Assembly (NCBI GenBank): GCA_021780815.1
Contig: JAJXYC010000013.1
Span: forward strand, 303,706-367,705
Length of the DNA stretch: 64,000 bases
Direction of reading: 5' to 3'
Source of the DNA: Bacteroidota bacterium
GTDB taxonomy: Bacteria > Bacteroidota > Ignavibacteria > Kapaibacteriales > UBA2268
In this document: piece after piece, positions 19,842-31,546 of the stretch
How positions within the stretch are numbered: the stretch's first letter is position 1
Layout of the letters: every line of letters starts with the position of its first letter
Translations under genes and position numbers: made by a program
The notes under the pieces: generated by a model
What the model was told of the DNA's origin: nothing
The model's input: the letters and a program-made list of their open reading frames with translations, nothing else
The model's database searches: none

Positions 19842-21089
19842 TTATTTTTGAATTAAAAATTTACCTTTAAATATTTGAGTATTTAGGACAATTTGAAAAT
19901 AATAAGTGCCATATGCAAGATTCAAGTTATCAACAACAACACTATTTTCTCCCACGTAGATTTCTTGAATGTTTGTCTTACTAATTATTTTTCCAGAAAC
20001 ATCGGTAATAAGAATAACAGCATTTGAATAAATATCATTTGCATTAAACTGGAAAGTAATCTTTCCAGTGGTTGGATTTGGAAAAACTATTACATCTTTT
20101 GAATTTTTATTGTTTTCATTTACACTATTAATTTCAGGACAGTACAATGAAATAAAGGCACATTTTTCTTCATCAGAGATTTCTGCATATTCAAGCGGAT
20201 TATGTAAATCTGGATTTAAAGAATACAAACTTCCAGATGAACAATCGTTGCCATTTAAATCACGACCTTCAACAAAACCATATAATTGTCCTAATTCATA
20301 AGCTAATACTGTTCTAAGATTCGGTGATGATGGTACTTTATCGCCCCAATAATTATAATCCCAATTATCCACTATTGAGTGTGAAACATAAAATGATCTA
20401 TATGTATTTGTAGGTTCTGGGTTGTTTATATCACGTCTCGTATATTCAGGTGTATTATTCAAGTAAATACGTAAACCATTACATTTTATTTCGCAACTAT
20501 CAATGGTTTCTACATCTTCAACATTACGTCCTTCATCAATATCATTTTTATCTAATAATTGACTTAATTCTACTGAATTCGTCCCATATTGATGATATGG
20601 GTCAGAAAATATTTGATAATTTAAATTTTTATATTGTCTATTAATATCAACAAAGCTTACTTTAACGGTGCACCCGCAAGAATTATCGTCCCAACCGCAA
20701 ATACACTTCCACATTTTTTCAGCTTGTTTCATATCATCAAATAAATCATCAGGATTATATATATTACCTGAACTGCAGACCCCTCCACCACAAATGCTAC
20801 TTTGTATTATTGTGTTTGGTCCAGGATTTTCGGTATCAATTTCTAAACATAAAGGAAGAGCATTTGAATTTAATTTCAGTAAAGTGAACGGGTATAAATG
20901 CGTATAAAAAGGTGAACCATCAAAATTAGCTGGGTCAATGGCACAAAATGTACGAATTTTATTATCATTACAACAGAACTGATACAATCGGGACTGATTA
21001 CTACAATTAATTTTCTCACCACAAGCAAAAACATCTTTCATTTGAAAAAATAAAAACATAGCTAAGAGTAAAAAGATAATTTTTTTCAT
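19842..21089 (-). CDS. Secreted metalloprotease-like protein with T9SS sorting domain (zinc motif apparently degenerate)
   Basis: VLAYELGQLYGF in place of HExxH; C-term VIVFPNPTTGKITFQF...GKFLIQK. Confidence 0.65.
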   Translation of the reverse strand: MKKIIFLLLAMFLFFQMKDVFACGEKINCSNQSRLYQFCCNDNKIRTFCAIDPANFDGSPFYTHLYPFTLLKLNSNALPLCLEIDTENPGPNTIIQSSICGGGVCSSGNIYNPDDLFDDMKQAEKMWKCICGWDDNSCGCTVKVSFVDINRQYKNLNYQIFSDPYHQYGTNSVELSQLLDKNDIDEGRNVEDVETIDSCEIKCNGLRIYLNNTPEYTRRDINNPEPTNTYRSFYVSHSIVDNWDYNYWGDKVPSSPNLRTVLAYELGQLYGFVEGRDLNGNDCSSGSLYSLNPDLHNPLEYAEISDEEKCAFISLYCPEINSVNENNKNSKDVIVFPNPTTGKITFQFNANDIYSNAVILITDVSGKIISKTNIQEIYVGENSVVVDNLNLAYGTYYFQIVLNTQIFKGKFLIQK

Positions 21090-21103
21090 AACTTTTTCCC
21101 CTT

Positions 21104-22069
21104 TTAGTAGTTTAAAATTTCATTTATTCTTTGTCTAAGTTTATTTTTCCATTCAATTACAGAAATATTTTTCCCAAATCCGAATGAATCTGAATTGTCA
21201 TTTATATTGCCATTTTTGATCGGGAAAAACAAAAAACTTTTATATTCGGGCCAAGCAGGTCTAAATTCAAAATAAGATTTTTCTTTATTATAACAAATCA
21301 CAAAACCATCTAAGAACACAATATATTCACCATCAATTTTAATTATTGGAGTTCCATCGTCATCCCAAAGTCCACCTGACCATCCGGGTGTATAATCAAA
21401 AACAAAAGCTGAATCAGGTAAAATTGATTGTTGAATTGATTTATTATTAGATTTTGAATTGTTTATAATTCCTCCTTGATTAGCAGGAAAATGCATTAAT
21501 GGAATTCGTTTTCCTTTTATAGTATCAAGTATCTGGCATTTTATTTGATAAAAACTACTTATAGGAAAAGGTCTTGAAGAATCACTTTCATCAATGATAC
21601 CCTTCACTTTAACGTGTAGTATATAGTTTGAACGCATAAGAGGATAATCAATTTTAGAATAGGGAGATAGTTTTTTTACTGTTGTTTCTATATAGTCTTT
21701 TAGGCTCATTCCAATTGATACTGATTGGATATGAGGGTCATTATAAATGCGAGATTCTTGATACCTTACAGGGTCAAAATCTACCATTTTATAAAAATAT
21801 TTCATTATTGTTTTGAGAGTATCATTAAAAGTTTGTCTTTCTAAAAATAGTTTAGCCGCATAATCATTACTATAATAACTTATGCTATCCAAAGCGACGT
21901 ATGCTAATAATACATCATACGGCATTTCCATAGAATATGGAGGATATTGTTTCAAGTAATCAAACTCATAAGCTAAATAAGGGTAACTGCTATCGCAAGG
22001 GACTGTTTGACTTGTTAATTTAGGAACACTAAATAAAAAAAGAAAAAATATAAATAATACTTTATTCAT
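21104..22069 (-). CDS. Secreted hypothetical protein, diverged paralogue of 18615-19832
   Basis: Shared PCD(S/T) start, DTLKTIMKYFYKMVDFDPV vs DSLRKIMADFYNIIDYDPI, IKCQILDTIKGKRIP vs VTSEILDTIKGKIIP, KLRQRINEI vs KVRQRIDEI. Confidence 0.6.
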   Translation of the reverse strand: MNKVLFIFFLFLFSVPKLTSQTVPCDSSYPYLAYEFDYLKQYPPYSMEMPYDVLLAYVALDSISYYSNDYAAKLFLERQTFNDTLKTIMKYFYKMVDFDPVRYQESRIYNDPHIQSVSIGMSLKDYIETTVKKLSPYSKIDYPLMRSNYILHVKVKGIIDESDSSRPFPISSFYQIKCQILDTIKGKRIPLMHFPANQGGIINNSKSNNKSIQQSILPDSAFVFDYTPGWSGGLWDDDGTPIIKIDGEYIVFLDGFVICYNKEKSYFEFRPAWPEYKSFLFFPIKNGNINDNSDSFGFGKNISVIEWKNKLRQRINEILNY

Positions 22070-22218
22070 TTTGCTACTCCTTTATTTTTTTGTTTGTTAA
22101 ATTTCTTTACCACAAAGGTAAGTAAAAAAAATGAGAAATGCAAATTTTTTTTTACAAAAAACAAAAATAAATGCACTTTTATGAAAATATTTTAATAAAA
22201 AATCAAGATTTCATAACT

Positions 22219-23577
22219 TTACCATTGATAACTTATATTAAAGAATGGAATTTGATTTTGCAAATATTTATTTGTTTCTCGAACATTATTTGTAAGTGCT
22301 AAAGGATTAAAATTGAAGTCTAATTTTCCTGTGCTATTTGATTCTTTGAACATATTGCTTTTAACAATAGAGTTGTAAGTGATATCGAAACCTAACTCAG
22401 CTGCCAAAGTAACAATCAAAGGAATAAAACGGACGTCGTTATCATTTGAATGTTGGAAAGCAATTAGGCTAATTCCTGTTCCAATTAAACCGCCACCAAG
22501 AGCGCCGAGTGCTAAATAATTACCTTGTGCATCAGAAAAATTAACATCACTAACCAGGTAATTCCCTCGCAAACCACCAAAAGTCGCACCAAGGACCATA
22601 ATTCCAACAGCAGTTTGAGCATCTTGTGTTTTCAAAACAGCAAGCAAAGCAGCCGTTTCTGCCGTAGCCAAAAGTGTAGATGTAGAAAATACTTCAGCAT
22701 CGCCAGGAGCATAATCGTATTTATTGCTTAAAGTATTCCCTAATAATGCACCACCCATTGAACCAAGCAAGAAGCTACCAGATATTTGATTATTTGTCAT
22801 ATTATCACCAATTAATGTGTATGATATACCTGCTAAATATGGTGCTCCTAATAAAGACATATCCACAATTGCATTAGCTTTGCCTTCAGTAATTTTATTT
22901 TCTTTTGCGTAATAATAGCCGCCTAAGATGCCAGAAACACTGGTTAATGTTGGCAAAATATATTGGTCATTTAATTCAAAGGAAATGTGAGCCAAATCAT
23001 TCAAGCAATAACCTATACCTAAACCTACTGCACCAGATCCAACGGCCAAATTTGACATTCCATAAGTTACTTCGATATTTTTCGTAAGATAAAACGGGAC
23101 GAAAAATCCTGCTCCTATTGTAAACAAATCAATTGCTCCCGATACATTTGCATTTGCATTTGAAATGCTTGCTAAACTGATGCCATAGTAAATGGACAAT
23201 AAAGTAGTCCCTGTAATCAAATAGACTCTACCGTCTTGGTTTAAATTTAATTTAATATTGTTATGTGCAAGTTGAAAAGCAATTTTTTTTCTTAAGCTAT
23301 TAAGTTGGCTTTGAGAATAGTTCAGTTGTTTTCGCATCAAATTGTTTCGTTCATAATAAATAATTTCTAATATGTAACTTGAATCGGTTTTTTGAAATAG
23401 TTTAGCTTCATTGAAACCATTTATTTCGGGGAAAAGATTTAGTAATTTTTCAAGTTCAATATCAACTATAAAAATATTATTTGTAGAATCAATTGGTATT
23501 TGACGTTCTTGTGAATATAAAAAAAAGGGGATTGTTAATAAAAAAACTAGTACAAAATAAATTAATTTCTTTTGCAT
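22219..23577 (-). CDS. Hypothetical Gly/Ala-rich membrane-associated protein
   Basis: Signal peptide MQKKLIYFVLVFLLTIPFFLYSQ; repeated GGALLG/GGLIG segments. Confidence 0.55.
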   Translation of the reverse strand: MQKKLIYFVLVFLLTIPFFLYSQERQIPIDSTNNIFIVDIELEKLLNLFPEINGFNEAKLFQKTDSSYILEIIYYERNNLMRKQLNYSQSQLNSLRKKIAFQLAHNNIKLNLNQDGRVYLITGTTLLSIYYGISLASISNANANVSGAIDLFTIGAGFFVPFYLTKNIEVTYGMSNLAVGSGAVGLGIGYCLNDLAHISFELNDQYILPTLTSVSGILGGYYYAKENKITEGKANAIVDMSLLGAPYLAGISYTLIGDNMTNNQISGSFLLGSMGGALLGNTLSNKYDYAPGDAEVFSTSTLLATAETAALLAVLKTQDAQTAVGIMVLGATFGGLRGNYLVSDVNFSDAQGNYLALGALGGGLIGTGISLIAFQHSNDNDVRFIPLIVTLAAELGFDITYNSIVKSNMFKESNSTGKLDFNFNPLALTNNVRETNKYLQNQIPFFNISYQW

Positions 23578-23699
23578 TTTACCCTCGTTTATTTTTTTAC
23601 AAAAATAAACAATAATCAAAAAAAACAATAAATAATCAAAAAAAAATATTCTATACATTTAGAATATTTTTTTGATATTTTTAAATTATAAGATTTTTC

Positions 23700-25496
23700 T
23701 TAATGTCTCTTCTTTTTAGATTTTAATTTTTCAATACTTTTTCTTCTATCGTGGTAATTTGAGATTTGATTGCTTTCGTAAAAATTTTTGTTATCGTTTT
23801 TTGTTTCAAATTGCTTTTTTTGAATTTTCACAAGTTCAACAATAAGACGTTCATTTTTGTAACTTGCTCTTTCAAATGCTTCTAATACTTGCGAAGTAAA
23901 CTCACTGTCAATTTCGAAAAAAGAAAACTTTTTCATTATTTCAATTTGTCCAATTTCTATATTTTTCGCTTTCATTCTTTCATTAATTAAGCCTATTAAT
24001 TTAACAGGATTTATCGCTTGATTGGAACCAATATTAATATAGAATCTAGAAAAACTTAAATTACTTCTTCTATTTTTATAGCCTTCGTTTTTATCGCTTC
24101 TATTGTTTTTATCATTCCTCCCGTTGTCTTTATTTTTTGTATCTTTTTTTCTATTATTTTCTTTATGGACAGTAACATTAAGGTCCGAAGAATTTTTGTA
24201 ATAATTAAGGAAGCTATTAAATTCAACCCAAACAAATTTTTTGACAATTTCTTCTTTGCTTAAATCGTTGAATTTGCTAAGAATATCAGGAAGAAAAGGT
24301 TTGATTTGCTCTTCATCTACTTCAACTTTGTCAAATTTATCAATTAAATTAAATAATCTTTTTTCACAAATAGCACGACCATCGGGTACTAGCTCGTGGG
24401 TAAAAGGTTTCCCTATTTTTTGTTCAAGAATTTTAATTTGATGACCTGCACGAGAGTGGACAATAGAAATGGAAATGCCACTTTTACCTGCTCTTCCTGT
24501 TCTCCCGCTTCGGTGAATATATATATCAGGATCATCAGGTAAATTGTAATTAATTATGTGGCTTAAGTCATTCACATCAAGTCCTCTTGCTGCAACATCA
24601 GTTGCGACTAATAACTGCAAATATTTATCACGGAATCTATTCATTACAATATCTCTTTGAGCTTGCGACAAGTCTCCATGCAAAGCATCTGCATTGTAAC
24701 CATCATTAATTAATTTATCAGATATTTCCTTAGTTTCATTTCTTGTTCTACAAAAGATAATGCCATAAATATCTGGATTAATGTCCGCTATCCTTTTTAA
24801 AGTTTCGTATCTATCGTCAGCATGTACCATATAATAATTATGTATAACATTATCAGCACCTTGATTCATTTTTCCCGAAGTAATTTCGGCAGGATCCGAC
24901 ATATATTTCTTTGTAATGGTCCTAATTGGTTCAGGCATAGTGGCAGAAAAAAGCATCGTTTGTTTTTTAGCAGGAGTTGTGGCAAGGATACCGTCTAATT
25001 CATCTTTAAAACCCATAGATAACATTTCATCAGCTTCGTCAAGCACTACCCATCGAATATTACTAACATTCAACTTCTTTGATTTTATTAAATCTAATGC
25101 TCTACCGGGTGTTCCAACAACAATTTGAGAGCCTTTTCTCAATTTACCAGCTTGCGTTTCGACAGGGGCACCTCCATAAACAGCAGTAACATTCAATCCT
25201 TTCATATATTTTGAAAATGAAGAAATATCTTTTGCAATCTGCATACATAATTCACGAGTTGGGCAAAGAATTAGAACTTGTGTTTGAAGAGAATTAACAT
25301 CCAATAATTGTATTAAAGGAATTCCATAAGCAGCCGTTTTGCCTGTTCCTGTTTGTGCTAACGCTATTAAATCTCTGCTTGATGTTAGTAAATGTGGTAT
25401 TGTTTCGGCTTGGATAGGAGTTGGTTCTTCAAAGCCTAAATCTTCCAAAGCTCTTTTAATTTCGAGGTTTAACTCTAATGAATTGAATATACTCAT
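23700..25496 (-). CDS. DEAD-box ATP-dependent RNA helicase with DbpA-like RNA-binding domain
   Basis: ALAQTGTGKTAAYGIP, VLDEADEMLSMGF, SATMP, HRSGRTGRAGKSG; DbpA-like C-term. Confidence 0.95.
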   Translation of the reverse strand: MSIFNSLELNLEIKRALEDLGFEEPTPIQAETIPHLLTSSRDLIALAQTGTGKTAAYGIPLIQLLDVNSLQTQVLILCPTRELCMQIAKDISSFSKYMKGLNVTAVYGGAPVETQAGKLRKGSQIVVGTPGRALDLIKSKKLNVSNIRWVVLDEADEMLSMGFKDELDGILATTPAKKQTMLFSATMPEPIRTITKKYMSDPAEITSGKMNQGADNVIHNYYMVHADDRYETLKRIADINPDIYGIIFCRTRNETKEISDKLINDGYNADALHGDLSQAQRDIVMNRFRDKYLQLLVATDVAARGLDVNDLSHIINYNLPDDPDIYIHRSGRTGRAGKSGISISIVHSRAGHQIKILEQKIGKPFTHELVPDGRAICEKRLFNLIDKFDKVEVDEEQIKPFLPDILSKFNDLSKEEIVKKFVWVEFNSFLNYYKNSSDLNVTVHKENNRKKDTKNKDNGRNDKNNRSDKNEGYKNRRSNLSFSRFYINIGSNQAINPVKLIGLINERMKAKNIEIGQIEIMKKFSFFEIDSEFTSQVLEAFERASYKNERLIVELVKIQKKQFETKNDNKNFYESNQISNYHDRRKSIEKLKSKKKRH

Positions 25497-25799: not shown

Positions 25800-26822
25800 T
25801 TATTCGAAATTTTCTGAGTCTAAATTTATTTTTGTAATTTTAATTTTATTAACTTTTGTACATTTCATAATTTTTTGGTCAAAAATTACTATATTTTTAC
25901 CTTCTTTATGAAGTGAACTTTGAAATTTTAAGCCATAAACACCTGTTATTTCTTTTATGAATTCACAGATAAATTGTGTTGGGACATAATCAATTTCAGA
26001 ATCATATCTTCGAATGGGTTTTGACAAATCTTTGCTTATTTCTTGTTTTAATAATGTTGATTTAATAATACGATTTATTAAGCCAGGAGAATATAAATTT
26101 GGTGTTTCTGTAAAGTCTGAAATACTTATTTTATCTTGAATATTATTTAATTTAAAAGTACCAACTGACACCTCATCTAAATATGTTGCTCGTATTTCAT
26201 AAAGTGGTGTGTCTTTATTATCACATAAATATAAATAAGGAATTCCAAGAGGATTTGCTCTACCTGCTGTTGTTATTTCTTTTGGAGGACAAAACATTTC
26301 AGTGGGTTTAAATTTTGCTAAATTATGATTCGAATGTACTCTTGCTCTATAAAATCTATCCTTGTTATTTATTTGAATTTGGCTTGAAAAAAAGCTATCC
26401 CATCCTAAGTCTTCAACAATAAATGCAATTTCAGTTAAATACCTTTTTTCCCATTTTAATTTGTATTTCAAAGTATTCCAATAACTAACATTTTCGATGA
26501 TGTCATCGTTAAAATCAACAAGTACTTCAGCATTTTGAAAATTTTTACTAATTTTTCCAATTGAATAATTTAAAATTTTTATTCCTATATCATTTCCCTC
26601 GAACAAATTCCAATTATTTTGAATTATGGATATTAAGCTTTTTCCATCCGTTTTTAATTTGAAGTTGCTTAATAATTCATTAAAAAAATCAAATATTTCT
26701 TCAATATTAATCACTTCAATATCTGTGGAGTTGCAAAAACTACATTTCCCAATATTATTTTGGGATAATATAAAATTATTAATTTCTTCATCAGCAAAAC
26801 AATTTGTACAAACAAATTTCAT
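25800..26822 (-). CDS. RES-domain protein (NAD+ phosphorylase family) with N-terminal zinc ribbon/HEPN-like region
   Basis: CTNCF..CSFC ribbon; FYRARVHSNHNLAKFKPTEMFCPPKEITTAGRANPLGIPYLYLCDNKDTPLYEIRATYLDEVSVGTFKL. Confidence 0.85.
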   Translation of the reverse strand: MKFVCTNCFADEEINNFILSQNNIGKCSFCNSTDIEVINIEEIFDFFNELLSNFKLKTDGKSLISIIQNNWNLFEGNDIGIKILNYSIGKISKNFQNAEVLVDFNDDIIENVSYWNTLKYKLKWEKRYLTEIAFIVEDLGWDSFFSSQIQINNKDRFYRARVHSNHNLAKFKPTEMFCPPKEITTAGRANPLGIPYLYLCDNKDTPLYEIRATYLDEVSVGTFKLNNIQDKISISDFTETPNLYSPGLINRIIKSTLLKQEISKDLSKPIRRYDSEIDYVPTQFICEFIKEITGVYGLKFQSSLHKEGKNIVIFDQKIMKCTKVNKIKITKINLDSENFE

Positions 26823-27757
26823 ATTGAATCCAAAAATTTACTAATTATTAATAAGTGGTTTTTTATCGAGATTTTTTTTATAGTACCTAAACCTGGATAG
26901 CGAGCTTCATTTAAGTAATTTTTCAATTCATCTATTGCTGAATTTCTAAATCCGTTTGTCTCACAAAATTGAATAGCTTTTTGAGCGGCTTCAGCAAATT
27001 TACCTTGGACATTAGAATTGGTGTCGTTAGACTCTGATGTGAAATGTCGAATCCATATTTCATTGTTAGAAGCAGCATTTATATAGGTCAAATGTATCAC
27101 AACTGCCCTTGGTAGCATTCCTCCTTCAATAAATTCTTTTGGTAAAATAGTAAAGTCTGAAAACCCATTATAATTTTCTGCTTTATAATATAAATGTTCT
27201 TCTGAGAATTTATGTGCTTGAATTTCTAAAAAATCTGCATTCTTTTGTTGCTTTTCAAAAATATCATCTAATCTAATGTAGAATTTATTATATCCCTTCA
27301 ATTTACGGTCTAAGTTTCTGTTTTTATTAGGGTCAAGAAGCATAATTTTAGTTACATTTGTATTATCATATAATTGTTTTAGATTATTTTCATCTGTAAA
27401 ATTATCAAAACATATTATTAAACACTCCGAAAGATGATATTCCTTAATTTTTGAAATTATATAATCAAAATTATCTTTGTAATGAAAAGAAGGTAGATAA
27501 TGGCAATTTTCCAAATTTTTAAGATAATCAAGAAATAATTCAGTATCACCAGAAAATTCGCCCTCAAGAGGATTCACAATAAGGAAGGGTTTAAAATTAT
27601 TTTCTTGGAACACTTTATGTGCTAAATTTAGATTACTGAAACTCTCTTTAACTGGTTCCAAAACAGGTATGATTTTGTTTTGTAACACCTTTTCTAAAAC
27701 AAGTTCTCTCAGTGCTATTAATTCGAACTGTCTTGCTCTCAAATATGGAAAATACAT
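26819..27757 (-). CDS. sce7725 / Beta-protein-like family protein
   Basis: MYFPYLRARQFELIALRELV..KIIPVLEPVKE..LIVNPLEGEF; partner of an sce7726-like gene; overlaps the RES gene by 4 nt. Confidence 0.75.
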   Translation of the reverse strand: MYFPYLRARQFELIALRELVLEKVLQNKIIPVLEPVKESFSNLNLAHKVFQENNFKPFLIVNPLEGEFSGDTELFLDYLKNLENCHYLPSFHYKDNFDYIISKIKEYHLSECLIICFDNFTDENNLKQLYDNTNVTKIMLLDPNKNRNLDRKLKGYNKFYIRLDDIFEKQQKNADFLEIQAHKFSEEHLYYKAENYNGFSDFTILPKEFIEGGMLPRAVVIHLTYINAASNNEIWIRHFTSESNDTNSNVQGKFAEAAQKAIQFCETNGFRNSAIDELKNYLNEARYPGLGTIKKISIKNHLLIISKFLDSI

Positions 27758-27759
27758 AT

Positions 27760-28623
27760 TTATAACCTTTTATTTTGTAATTTCGAAATTAAGAAATCTT
27801 TTTCTAAATTATTAAAATTTAATGAAAGTGAAATTTGATTAAATTCACTATTGGATTTATTAAAAAAAATATTGTTTTTTTTGCGGTTTTTCATAAATTT
27901 GATAAAGATATTGTTTAAATCTTCATGAGGAATTTGAGATAGTTTTTCTTTACAAATTTTAAACTGGTTGAAAGAATTCATTTCAGGTAAAAATTGAAAA
28001 TAATCTTTGACAATTCCTATATACTCTTTAGTATGAAGAACATTCATTAATATATCAACATCAACAACATTATTAAATTTTGAAGACTTTTCTAATTGAA
28101 ATTCCTTATTTTTATAGTCATGAGAGATTATCCCAATATCATTATCTAATTTACTGTATTTATGTAAATATTCTTTTGGGACAATTATATATACTTCATT
28201 AAATAATTTTTTATATTCATTTAATTGGTTTGATAGCCGAAATTCATTGTCTAAAATTGTTTTTATCTCAAAAGCTTTTGAGACCCCATTAAACATTGAT
28301 AGGTCAGCTATAGCTTTACCTAATCGAAATTCATTAAAAATTAATGAAAAAGACTTTCCTATTTCATGTCTTAACCAATTGTTTAAAAATTCATTTTTAA
28401 TAATATATTCATTTGGATAATTTTCTTCTAATAATTTATAAACTTTTTTTAAAATATCTAAATATGTTCTTTCTCGAAAATGATTAATTAAATTATATCT
28501 TGATAATTTTATATTAATTGACTTAAAATCGTCTTTAAACCAACGAAGAACTTCACTTCTACTAAAAAGAGTTGAAAAATCTCTTAATAGATTGTTTGAA
28601 ATATGCTTTTGTAATGCTTCCAT
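27760..28623 (-). CDS. sce7726-like family protein, putative PD-(D/E)xK nuclease
   Basis: YIIKNEFLNNWLRHEIG..FNEFRLGKAIADLSMFNGVSKAFEIKTILDNEFRLSNQLNEYKKLFNEVYIIVP (IADL...FEIKT core). Confidence 0.75.
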   Translation of the reverse strand: MEALQKHISNNLLRDFSTLFSRSEVLRWFKDDFKSINIKLSRYNLINHFRERTYLDILKKVYKLLEENYPNEYIIKNEFLNNWLRHEIGKSFSLIFNEFRLGKAIADLSMFNGVSKAFEIKTILDNEFRLSNQLNEYKKLFNEVYIIVPKEYLHKYSKLDNDIGIISHDYKNKEFQLEKSSKFNNVVDVDILMNVLHTKEYIGIVKDYFQFLPEMNSFNQFKICKEKLSQIPHEDLNNIFIKFMKNRKKNNIFFNKSNSEFNQISLSLNFNNLEKDFLISKLQNKRL

Positions 28624-29098: not shown

Positions 29099-31546
29099 AT
29101 GAAAAAGGTTTTATTCCTTATTTTTTGTGTAGTGCTAACTACTCATTTGCAAGCACAACATAGTTTTTTGACATATTACGAGTTATCTCCCGTGTTGCAA
29201 ACGTCTCCCGATGCATTCAAATTTGGTTTGTATGGGTATCAAAATCCAGCAGTAACGTCTTATTTACAAGGTGCCGATATGCAATTTTCATATTGGAATA
29301 AAGATGTAAATGGGAATCGCCCTTGGGGATTGTTTTTTGGTGACCAAGGTTCGGGATTTGGTTTAATACGTTCAGGAGATGCTTCTCATTACGTGGTGGA
29401 TTATCGTTATTCAGTGGCAATTCTTAACGCAGATAAAATAGCACTTGGTATTAACTATGGTTTTGTAGGTGGAGATAAAGCATATTTTAATCGGAGCAAC
29501 ACATTAGGTTGGGGAGTGTTGATACGTCCTAATCAATATCTATCGATAGGTGGGATGCAAACTTATGCGTTAGATAGGCATGATATTGAAAATGTTGCAG
29601 ATATTGCGGTGCGTCCTTTTGGGGATAAATACCCTCTGGCGTTTTTTGCAGATGCTTCAATGTTTAATAATCAAAGTATAGACCAAGCACTTTGGGGTGC
29701 AGGTATAAGCTGGGAATTAGTAGATGGCATTCGTATAAATTCGAGATATTTTTCTAATCAATCATTTTCAGTAGGTTTAGATGTAAGTTTTGGTAATATG
29801 GGAGTTTCTTTAAATCAATTGATGGATAAAAATGGCAATACAGGTAATGGGGCAGCTTCAATCCGTATTGGTGCCTTGGATAGAACAATTTTTAAAGATT
29901 TAACTCCGCAAAGGAATTATATGAAACTTGATTTGAGTGGTGAAATAAAGTATCAGCGTAACATATTATTTGATAAATCATTGACTTTGTATAACACAAT
30001 TCAACAAATTCATAAAGCGAAAAAAGATAAATCAATTAGTGGTATAGTAGTGAATTTTACAAATACAAGTGCCAATAAAGAGTTACTTTGGGAAATTCGT
30101 AAAGAGTTAGAAGATTTTAAATCAAATGGCAAAAGTGTAATAATTTTTGTGGATAGATTAGGAATTGATGGTTATGAATTTGCATCGGTTGCCGACAAAA
30201 TTATAATGGATGACCTTGGTACAATATCATTAGAAGGATATATATTAGGGCGTAGTTATTACAAAAAAATGTTAGATAACATTCATATCGGATTTGATGA
30301 AATACGGCTTTTCAAATATAAATCAGCGTATGAAAATTTTGCACGTCAAACAATGAGTGAGGCAGATAAAGAGCAACGTCAAGCATTAGTAGATGATTGG
30401 TATAATGTTGTTAAAAAGGATATAATGACCTCACGAGGTATTTCGGAAGACACATTTAACAATCTTGTAAACGGAACATTCCTTTATTCAGCTAAAGAAG
30501 CAAAATCTAATAAATTAATAGATACAACAGGTCGTTGGTTAGATTGCTCAAAAATCATTTCAAATTACGATAATAAAATAGTGTTGGTTGATGCAAAAAT
30601 GGTATTAGGCCAACCTAAGCCAATAGATGATAAATGGGGTTATACACCAAAGAAAATAGCAATAATTTATGCAATAGGCGAATGTGCTATGGATGCTGGA
30701 ATTAAAGCAAGAACATTAGTAAAAGATTTAACATGGGCAATAAATAGTTCAAACATATCTGCGATTGTTTTGCGAGTTGATTCACCCGGTGGCGATGCTC
30801 TTGCATCAGATTATATTGCCGAAGTAATGCGGCAAAATAAGGGGAAAAAACCTATAATTGTTTCACAAGGAGCTGTTGCTGGTTCGGGTGGTTATTGGCT
30901 GTCAATGTATGCTGATACAATTGTTGCCTCTCCGCTAACTATTACAGGTTCAATTGGTGTTATTTCAAGTTGGATTTATGATAAAGGATTAAAAGATTCA
31001 ATTGGTATTGGTACTGATTTTGTTAAAGTTGGGAAGTTTGCAGATTTAGGTTATTCTTATCAGTTTCCTTTAATTGGAATTGGTTTGCCTACGAGAGACT
31101 TATATGACAATGAAAGAAAAATTATTGAAAATTATATAGATGAATCATACCAAGCATTTACTCAAAAAGTTTCAGAAGGTAGAAAGATGCCTATTGAAAA
31201 AGTAAAAGAAGTTGCACAAGGTAGAATTTGGAGTGGGGTAGAAGGTAAAGAAAAACAATTGGTTGATGTACTTGGCAATTTGCAAGATGCGATTAATATA
31301 GCTTGTCAAAAAGCAGGAATAAAAAAAGATGAATCTTACGATGTTGTAGAACTTCCTAAACAAAATCTTTTTGACTTAAATCTTTCATTTCTGAATTTAT
31401 TTGGCGTTCATACAGATTTATTTAATCCAAACAAAGATTATTTAAAAGAGTATTTAGAAGAATCTTTAAAAATGCGTATTGCGAACAATGGTAAAGCAAT
31501 GTTTGTTGTTCCAATTGATTATTATGATTCTGTTGTATGGGAATAA
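29099..31546 (+). CDS. sppA: Signal peptide peptidase SppA (67K type, S49 family)
   Basis: KKIAIIYAIGECAMD, VLRVDSPGGDALASDYI, VSQGAVAGSGGYWLSMYAD, TGSIGVIS. Confidence 0.92.
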   Translation: MKKVLFLIFCVVLTTHLQAQHSFLTYYELSPVLQTSPDAFKFGLYGYQNPAVTSYLQGADMQFSYWNKDVNGNRPWGLFFGDQGSGFGLIRSGDASHYVVDYRYSVAILNADKIALGINYGFVGGDKAYFNRSNTLGWGVLIRPNQYLSIGGMQTYALDRHDIENVADIAVRPFGDKYPLAFFADASMFNNQSIDQALWGAGISWELVDGIRINSRYFSNQSFSVGLDVSFGNMGVSLNQLMDKNGNTGNGAASIRIGALDRTIFKDLTPQRNYMKLDLSGEIKYQRNILFDKSLTLYNTIQQIHKAKKDKSISGIVVNFTNTSANKELLWEIRKELEDFKSNGKSVIIFVDRLGIDGYEFASVADKIIMDDLGTISLEGYILGRSYYKKMLDNIHIGFDEIRLFKYKSAYENFARQTMSEADKEQRQALVDDWYNVVKKDIMTSRGISEDTFNNLVNGTFLYSAKEAKSNKLIDTTGRWLDCSKIISNYDNKIVLVDAKMVLGQPKPIDDKWGYTPKKIAIIYAIGECAMDAGIKARTLVKDLTWAINSSNISAIVLRVDSPGGDALASDYIAEVMRQNKGKKPIIVSQGAVAGSGGYWLSMYADTIVASPLTITGSIGVISSWIYDKGLKDSIGIGTDFVKVGKFADLGYSYQFPLIGIGLPTRDLYDNERKIIENYIDESYQAFTQKVSEGRKMPIEKVKEVAQGRIWSGVEGKEKQLVDVLGNLQDAINIACQKAGIKKDESYDVVELPKQNLFDLNLSFLNLFGVHTDLFNPNKDYLKEYLEESLKMRIANNGKAMFVVPIDYYDSVVWE

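Follow-up and report, generated by a model that had tools for sequence, protein, structure and literature searches.

Two anti-phage systems that contain a beta protein have been described. The gop-beta-cII genes of satellite phage P4 confer protection against phages lambda and P1; Gop is toxic in the absence of its suppressor, beta (Rousset 2022, PMC9122126). PD-lambda-2 includes a P4-beta-like third protein and defends by abortive infection; its defence requires this protein, although neutralisation of the toxin does not depend on it (Vassallo 2022, PMC9519451). Among RES toxins, a known member depletes NAD and NADP, and the active-site residues of NatT are R23, R82, Y93, S184 and N193 (PMC11535050). 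A 2013 paper by Anantharaman et al. (PMC3710099) presents HEPN/RES-NTD1 as a domain located ahead of HEPN or RES domains, and describes its fusion to RES with an extra zinc-ribbon. HEPN/RES-NTD1 is itself not HEPN.

The locus analysed here consists of an sce7726 gene, an sce7725 gene and a RES gene (the trio), and lies in a 64,000-nucleotide stretch of Bacteroidota DNA (the window, in its full length). The trio is probably a three-component, gop-beta-cII-like abortive-infection (toxin-antitoxin-like) anti-phage system in which a RES effector replaces Gop. This reading is based on the two proven beta-based anti-phage systems (one with beta and cII), from the intact RES catalytic residues and from the finding that RES never occurs without its partners. 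In the literature searched, outside which most subscription journals and preprints fell, no published description of the trio as a system was found, only gene listings; the three genes are listed for an IME of P. aeruginosa PA_HN002 (PMC9394441).

Layout and domain content of the locus

The features of the locus, with coordinates in the window, are as follows:

23700-25496, minus strand: DEAD-box helicase gene flanking the trio
25800..26822, minus strand: gene 3, RES protein (340 aa), with a C4 zinc-ribbon, a HEPN/RES-NTD1-like helical domain and a RES domain
25857..26351, minus strand: RES domain (residues 158-322), PF08808
26196..26261, minus strand: R188-x9-Y198-x10-E209 active-site signature of the RES protein (GRANPxGxPYLY...E), from the alignment
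26733..26810, minus strand: C5-C8-C27-C30 zinc-ribbon of the RES protein, the four Cys invariant in 51/51 members
26819..27757, minus strand: gene 2, sce7725 (P4 beta-like, 312 aa), from the ORF call and NCBIfam NF033831
27760..28623, minus strand: gene 1, sce7726 (P4 cII family, 287 aa), from the ORF call and NCBIfam NF033832
28261..28305, minus strand: D107-x11-E119-I-K121 motif of the sce7726 PD-(D/E)xK-like core (plus E72, Q133 and Y137), from the alignment
29099-31546, plus strand: sppA-like gene flanking the trio

These ORF coordinates agree with the arrangement given in an earlier note on this DNA: three minus-strand genes between the helicase and sppA genes, with a spacing of 2 nt between sce7726 and sce7725 and an overlap of 4 nt between sce7725 and RES. 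The same note had found no adjacent Xre antitoxin, and this was confirmed: only sce7726 and sce7725 stand beside RES in the operon, without an Xre family match. A standard RES-Xre pair was rejected for want of an Xre partner in the operon. The source genome (2.63 Mb, 20 contigs) has a single RES gene and a single sce7726 gene, both in the trio. The GC content of the trio is 24.7% vs 30.3% for the window, which places it within the lowest 2% of equal-sized window stretches. Beyond the DEAD-box helicase gene, the minus-strand genes at 19842-23658 include one whose product is probably secreted and has a sorting-like tail at its C terminus, as judged by eye.

Gene 1 had been assigned to sce7726 with a PD-(D/E)xK-like core, and both parts of the assignment hold. 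The window protein scored 140 bits against NF033832 (cut-off 70) and is of the long form, in which a helical extension at the N terminus is added to the PD-(D/E)xK-like core. E72, D107, E119, K121, Q133 and Y137 are invariant in all 58 aligned members (I120 in 57 of the 58). The AlphaFold model (pLDDT 92) has the alpha-beta-beta-beta-alpha-beta element order of PD-(D/E)xK, D107 being located within strand 104-111 and E119/K121 ending strand 115-120. Foldseek comparison of the model with the PDB gave SPO1766 (3dnx) as the top match (E 2.4e-4); AF2093 and EcoT38I ranked lower, with weak E values, and we take all three to have the PD-(D/E)xK fold. As modelled, sce7726 is a PD-(D/E)xK-type protein.

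The sce7725 protein of gene 2 scored 310 bits against NF033831 (cut-off 60). TIM barrels were the best PDB matches of its AlphaFold model (pLDDT 89), and this fold is predicted for sce7725; the model also matched a protein of a Gordonia phage (TM 0.68, by query). Its invariant polar residues (E34, N62, D201, H222, H238, K253, K294, K295 and others) suggest a binding or catalytic site. Against PF14350 (Beta), the window protein reached 16.8 bits, below the cut-off of 27, and it had no PADLOC beta match. Profile-profile comparison with Beta_protein gave Prob 88.9 and E 2.4e-6 over the N-terminal 103 columns. The sce7725 profile matched P4 beta weakly, with the N termini in register (a three-sequence search gave E 4.8e-7), and PF14350 was found by 33/59 sce7725 proteins at E up to 0.1 (best 3e-4). 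From the roughly 103 N-terminal columns and the predicted fold, sce7725 is likely a distant relative of P4 beta, so the Beta-like label that the gene had been given stands.

A separate sce7725 gene was observed on the Enterococcus faecium plasmid p114-2 (L200, 5108-7513): it has no RES gene after it, a GNAT acetyltransferase gene follows, and the ORF upstream did not match the sce7726 profile.

For gene 3, the claimed zinc ribbon and RES domain were both recovered. The RES domain scored 40.3 bits against Pfam PF08808 (cut-off 23.2), which all 51 family members match, and R159, R161, R188, N190, G193, Y198, E209, S302 and N310 are invariant throughout these 51. In the alignment, R, Y and E are spaced as in ParT, a RES toxin of solved structure (R-x9-Y-x10-E), and the conserved residue set parallels the active-site set of NatT (correspondence by eye). 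No meaningful matches came from searching the sequences of solved structures with the three profiles (RES, sce7726 and sce7725), so the active site of RES is assigned from Pfam, the spacing of the motif and the published residues. The helical region had been called HEPN-like, and this has to be corrected: it is HEPN/RES-NTD1 (PF18870, in 22/51 members; the window protein is weak and below the cut-off), not HEPN. A HEPN RNase with an R-x4-6-H motif was considered for gene 3 and rejected, as there was no HEPN family match.

Comparison with gop-beta-cII, PD-lambda-2 and RES systems

The sce7726 family HMM scored 105 bits against P4 cII. The PADLOC 'cll' model scored 376 bits on P4 cII, so the label 'cll' stands for cII; it scored 48 bits on the window sce7726 and matched 58/58 long sce7726 proteins. 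By sequence, sce7726 is of the same family as P4 cII.

Two forms of sce7726 were distinguished: a long form (~270-330 aa) with the N-terminal helical part, which accompanies sce7725 and RES, and a short form (~190-230 aa), which does not. In the genome samples, RES was present in 21/24 loci scoring above 170 bits against the long-form model (the exceptions being L038, L039 and the broken L182) and in 0/27 lower-scoring loci. Short-form genes lie tail to tail with genes for PF14350 Beta proteins, and beta-cII pairs for which no third gene was detected are frequent in this family. The genes in the P4 record are arranged like these loci: gop and beta are accompanied by a cII gene that converges on beta and is annotated 'sce7726 family protein'.

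Several individual loci were recorded besides. In L039 (9666-10556), a solo long-form sce7726, 47% identical to that of the window and without sce7725 or RES, is in line with two large genes, possibly of restriction-modification. In L047 (8934-9491), sce7726 is directly preceded by an antitoxin-like gene with a Panacea/SocA domain, and a Beta gene converges on it from the opposite side. Peptidase_M78 (ImmA/IrrE) genes adjoin Beta-type genes near short-form sce7726 in L176 (6201-6743), L177 (2997-3494) and L045 (8003-8662), and these loci resemble PD-lambda-2 plus cII.

Trio and gop-beta-cII (named 'Rst_gop_beta_cll' in DefenseFinder) have several properties in common: sce7726 belongs with cII in one family, sce7725 appears to be a distant relative of beta, and both consist of three genes on mobile elements with the killer, or presumed killer, adjoining the beta gene. 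They differ in the killer, which in P4 is the 133-aa Gop with predicted membrane segments (by eye) and in the trio would be a RES protein; in the extra N-terminal helical part of the trio sce7726; in orientation, the trio being one same-strand operon and P4 cII lying tail to tail with beta; and in order (cII-beta-killer in the trio, killer-beta-cII in P4). No gop gene is present in the trio, its third gene being RES, so the trio is a gop-beta-cII variant and not a strict member.

With PD-lambda-2, the trio would share abortive infection, a toxin-antitoxin-like core and a beta-family protein on which defence depends. The toxic parts of PD-lambda-2, in contrast, are HigB-like and Xre-peptidase proteins, with no RES, and its beta is not an antitoxin; no HigB-like or Xre-peptidase partner was found among the three trio genes. 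The PD-lambda-2 C models match PF14350 beta proteins (P4 beta, L171), not the window sce7725. The earlier note had named the families of a nuclease-like, Beta-like and RES trio correctly, but had missed the kinship of the two partners to cII and, probably, beta of the validated gop-beta-cII system (PMC9122126), and the presence of a beta protein in PD-lambda-2 (PMC9519451).

The RES-Xre systems (ParST, MbcTA, NatRT, GndRX) have in common with the trio a RES domain with conserved R/R/Y/E/S/N active-site residues. Unlike them, the trio has no Xre/MbcA/ParS antitoxin but two obligate partners of other families, and its RES protein adds a zinc-ribbon and HEPN/RES-NTD1 (340 aa vs 145-186 aa for solved RES chains). 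The domain architecture of gene 3 is that of the zinc-ribbon - HEPN/RES-NTD1 - RES proteins of PMC3710099, the accessible parts of which do not give partner genes or a mechanism.

Conservation, mobility and genomic context

The three genes co-occur well beyond chance, which had been set beforehand as a check on the earlier claim. Order and strand were identical in 117/117 intact trios (redundant loci included), with only sce7726 and sce7725 beside RES. Pairwise protein distances of the three genes were correlated at r = 0.92-0.94 (50 non-redundant loci) vs at most 0.25 in permutations. Twenty-four of 399 sampled Bacteroidota genomes had sce7726, and 12 of these (that of the window and 11 others) carried the trio, with gene order and strand unchanged. 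With one genome per species, 391 sce7725 relatives were obtained; among the best 80 of the 391, RES was present in 77 and sce7726 in 77, and four of the six gaps were contig ends. The sce7726-sce7725-RES trio is a real conserved unit.

The RES family profile gave full-length matches (at least 214 bits, with no scores between 150 and 214 bits in the 748 genomes) in 12/399 Bacteroidota genomes and in 8/349 genomes of another phylum, to which Lachnospiraceae belong. All 20 of these genomes have RES within the trio and never without both partners, although distant solo RES proteins would score below the 150-214 gap, the profile having been built from trio members. That RES is never alone fits a killer that needs its keepers.

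The converse does not hold: long-form sce7726-sce7725 pairs without RES exist, mainly in viral contigs (L212, L230-L234, L236), which shows that the pair also serves some purpose where RES is absent. The persistence of these pairs, the frequency of beta-cII pairs without a detected third gene among short forms, and the invariance of all PD-(D/E)xK catalytic residues together with the Q-x3-Y motif would also fit a two-armed restriction and suicide system, in which sce7726 is an effector in its own right that cuts DNA or RNA, with RES as a second, back-up effector. We consider this arrangement unlikely, as RES always comes with both partners, which points to a controlling role of the pair, and as the killer of P4 is Gop (PMC9122126).

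The distribution of the trio is patchy and extends over several phyla. The sce7725 relatives from the scan of one genome per species belong to Bacteroidota, Lachnospiraceae and other Clostridia, Fibrobacter, Cloacimonadota, Calditrichaceae, Chlorobiota and a betaproteobacterium. The trio was present in 19/5,426 E. coli genomes. Nine E. coli loci were inspected, and the setting of each is a mobile element or an island; relaxase or integrase genes accompany most of them, and several are near the fim operon. Named defence-type genes occur within ~10 kb in eight of the nine: Kiwa-like, Pycsar/TIR/caspase, retron-like RT, SIR2, type I RM, BREX, AbiE and HerA/kinase genes. The ninth (EC2641) has only a broken (truncated) type I RM gene, and its trio is interrupted by an IS; in E. 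coli UTME-9, RES is frameshifted. The defence-island setting that had been anticipated is seen in E. coli, while the window locus itself is set among housekeeping genes. PADLOC matched 285 models in trio neighbourhoods vs 58 in control neighbourhoods (120 proteins each), which is weak support as many of the models are redundant.

A four-gene E. coli cassette (caspase, TIR, cyclase-like and Pycsar-effector-like) recurs immediately upstream of the trio (L206:10784-13515, L277:5785-8516, L278:5786-8517 and L280:5785-8516).

The trio was also found on plasmids, in an ICE of Salmonella enterica subsp. houtenae and in viral contigs. Viral-contig searches with the RES protein alone (single-sequence patterns) gave no relatives, and those with the beta-like (sce7725) alignment gave 27 loci. 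Among loci of different genera of Flavobacteriia, between the trio of Chryseobacterium and those of Avrilella and Sinomicrobium, a 3.17-kb block has ~96% DNA identity and ends near the trio edges. Carriage on plasmids and on ICE-like and integrative mobilizable elements would suit an addiction or stability module of mobile elements, that is, a non-Xre RES toxin-antitoxin with phage protection only incidental; so would the fact that RES is never seen alone and the occurrence of several loci with a broken RES and intact partners (e.g. L184, L207). Such a module seems quite improbable as the main role, since both experimentally studied beta-containing relatives are anti-phage (PMC9122126, PMC9519451) and the trio lies repeatedly among defence systems in E. 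coli.

Within the family to which the window genome belongs, this genome alone has the trio (1/55), and 54/54 relatives lack it. The sppA neighbourhood varies even within the genus, among close relatives, so it offers no empty-site comparison for insertion of the trio. The window trio was probably acquired horizontally. Its flanking genes are housekeeping genes, and the site is not a defence island; this setting is the point in favour of an NAD+ regulator that serves stress response or housekeeping and has no relation to phages. We regard such a regulator as highly improbable, given the patchy distribution, absence from the family relatives, horizontal transfer, low GC and defence-island context elsewhere.

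Proposed mode of action

For the favoured gop-beta-cII-like reading, we propose the following sequence of events. The RES protein would be the killer, its RES domain degrading NAD+ by phosphorolysis or hydrolysis, and its zinc-ribbon and HEPN/RES-NTD1 would form a docking or gating part. In the uninfected cell, RES would be restrained by the beta-like, predicted TIM-barrel sce7725, which is probably complexed with the cII-like sce7726 at this stage. The latter may act as a nucleic-acid-facing sensor or trigger. Phage infection, the presumed trigger, would disturb the beta/cII complex and release RES; NAD+ would then fall, and the cell would stop before the phage multiplies. The least certain step is which partner restrains RES and which senses the phage. 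As the beta of PD-lambda-2 is not an antitoxin (PMC9519451), the brake on RES could be sce7726 or both partners.

More tentatively, beta and cII could be a general infection-sensing control module used with unrelated killers: Gop in P4, HigB/Xre-peptidase-type proteins in PD-lambda-2 and RES here. This broader proposal is possible, and we hold it with less than even confidence. It suggests one control pair wired to chemically unrelated ways of halting the cell, and if it is true, the RES-less pairs of viral contigs might be stripped-down versions or phage-borne antidotes against RES-armed hosts. The favoured reading of the trio would add RES enzymes to the NAD+-degrading anti-phage effectors, and would provide an explanation and an E. 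coli test bed for the widespread 'function unknown' families sce7725 and sce7726 and the accompanying RES proteins, in several phyla.

Finally, in two of the RES-less loci (L230 and L231), the pair is followed by a two-gene unit, an ATPase and a second protein, that resembles PARIS by eye.
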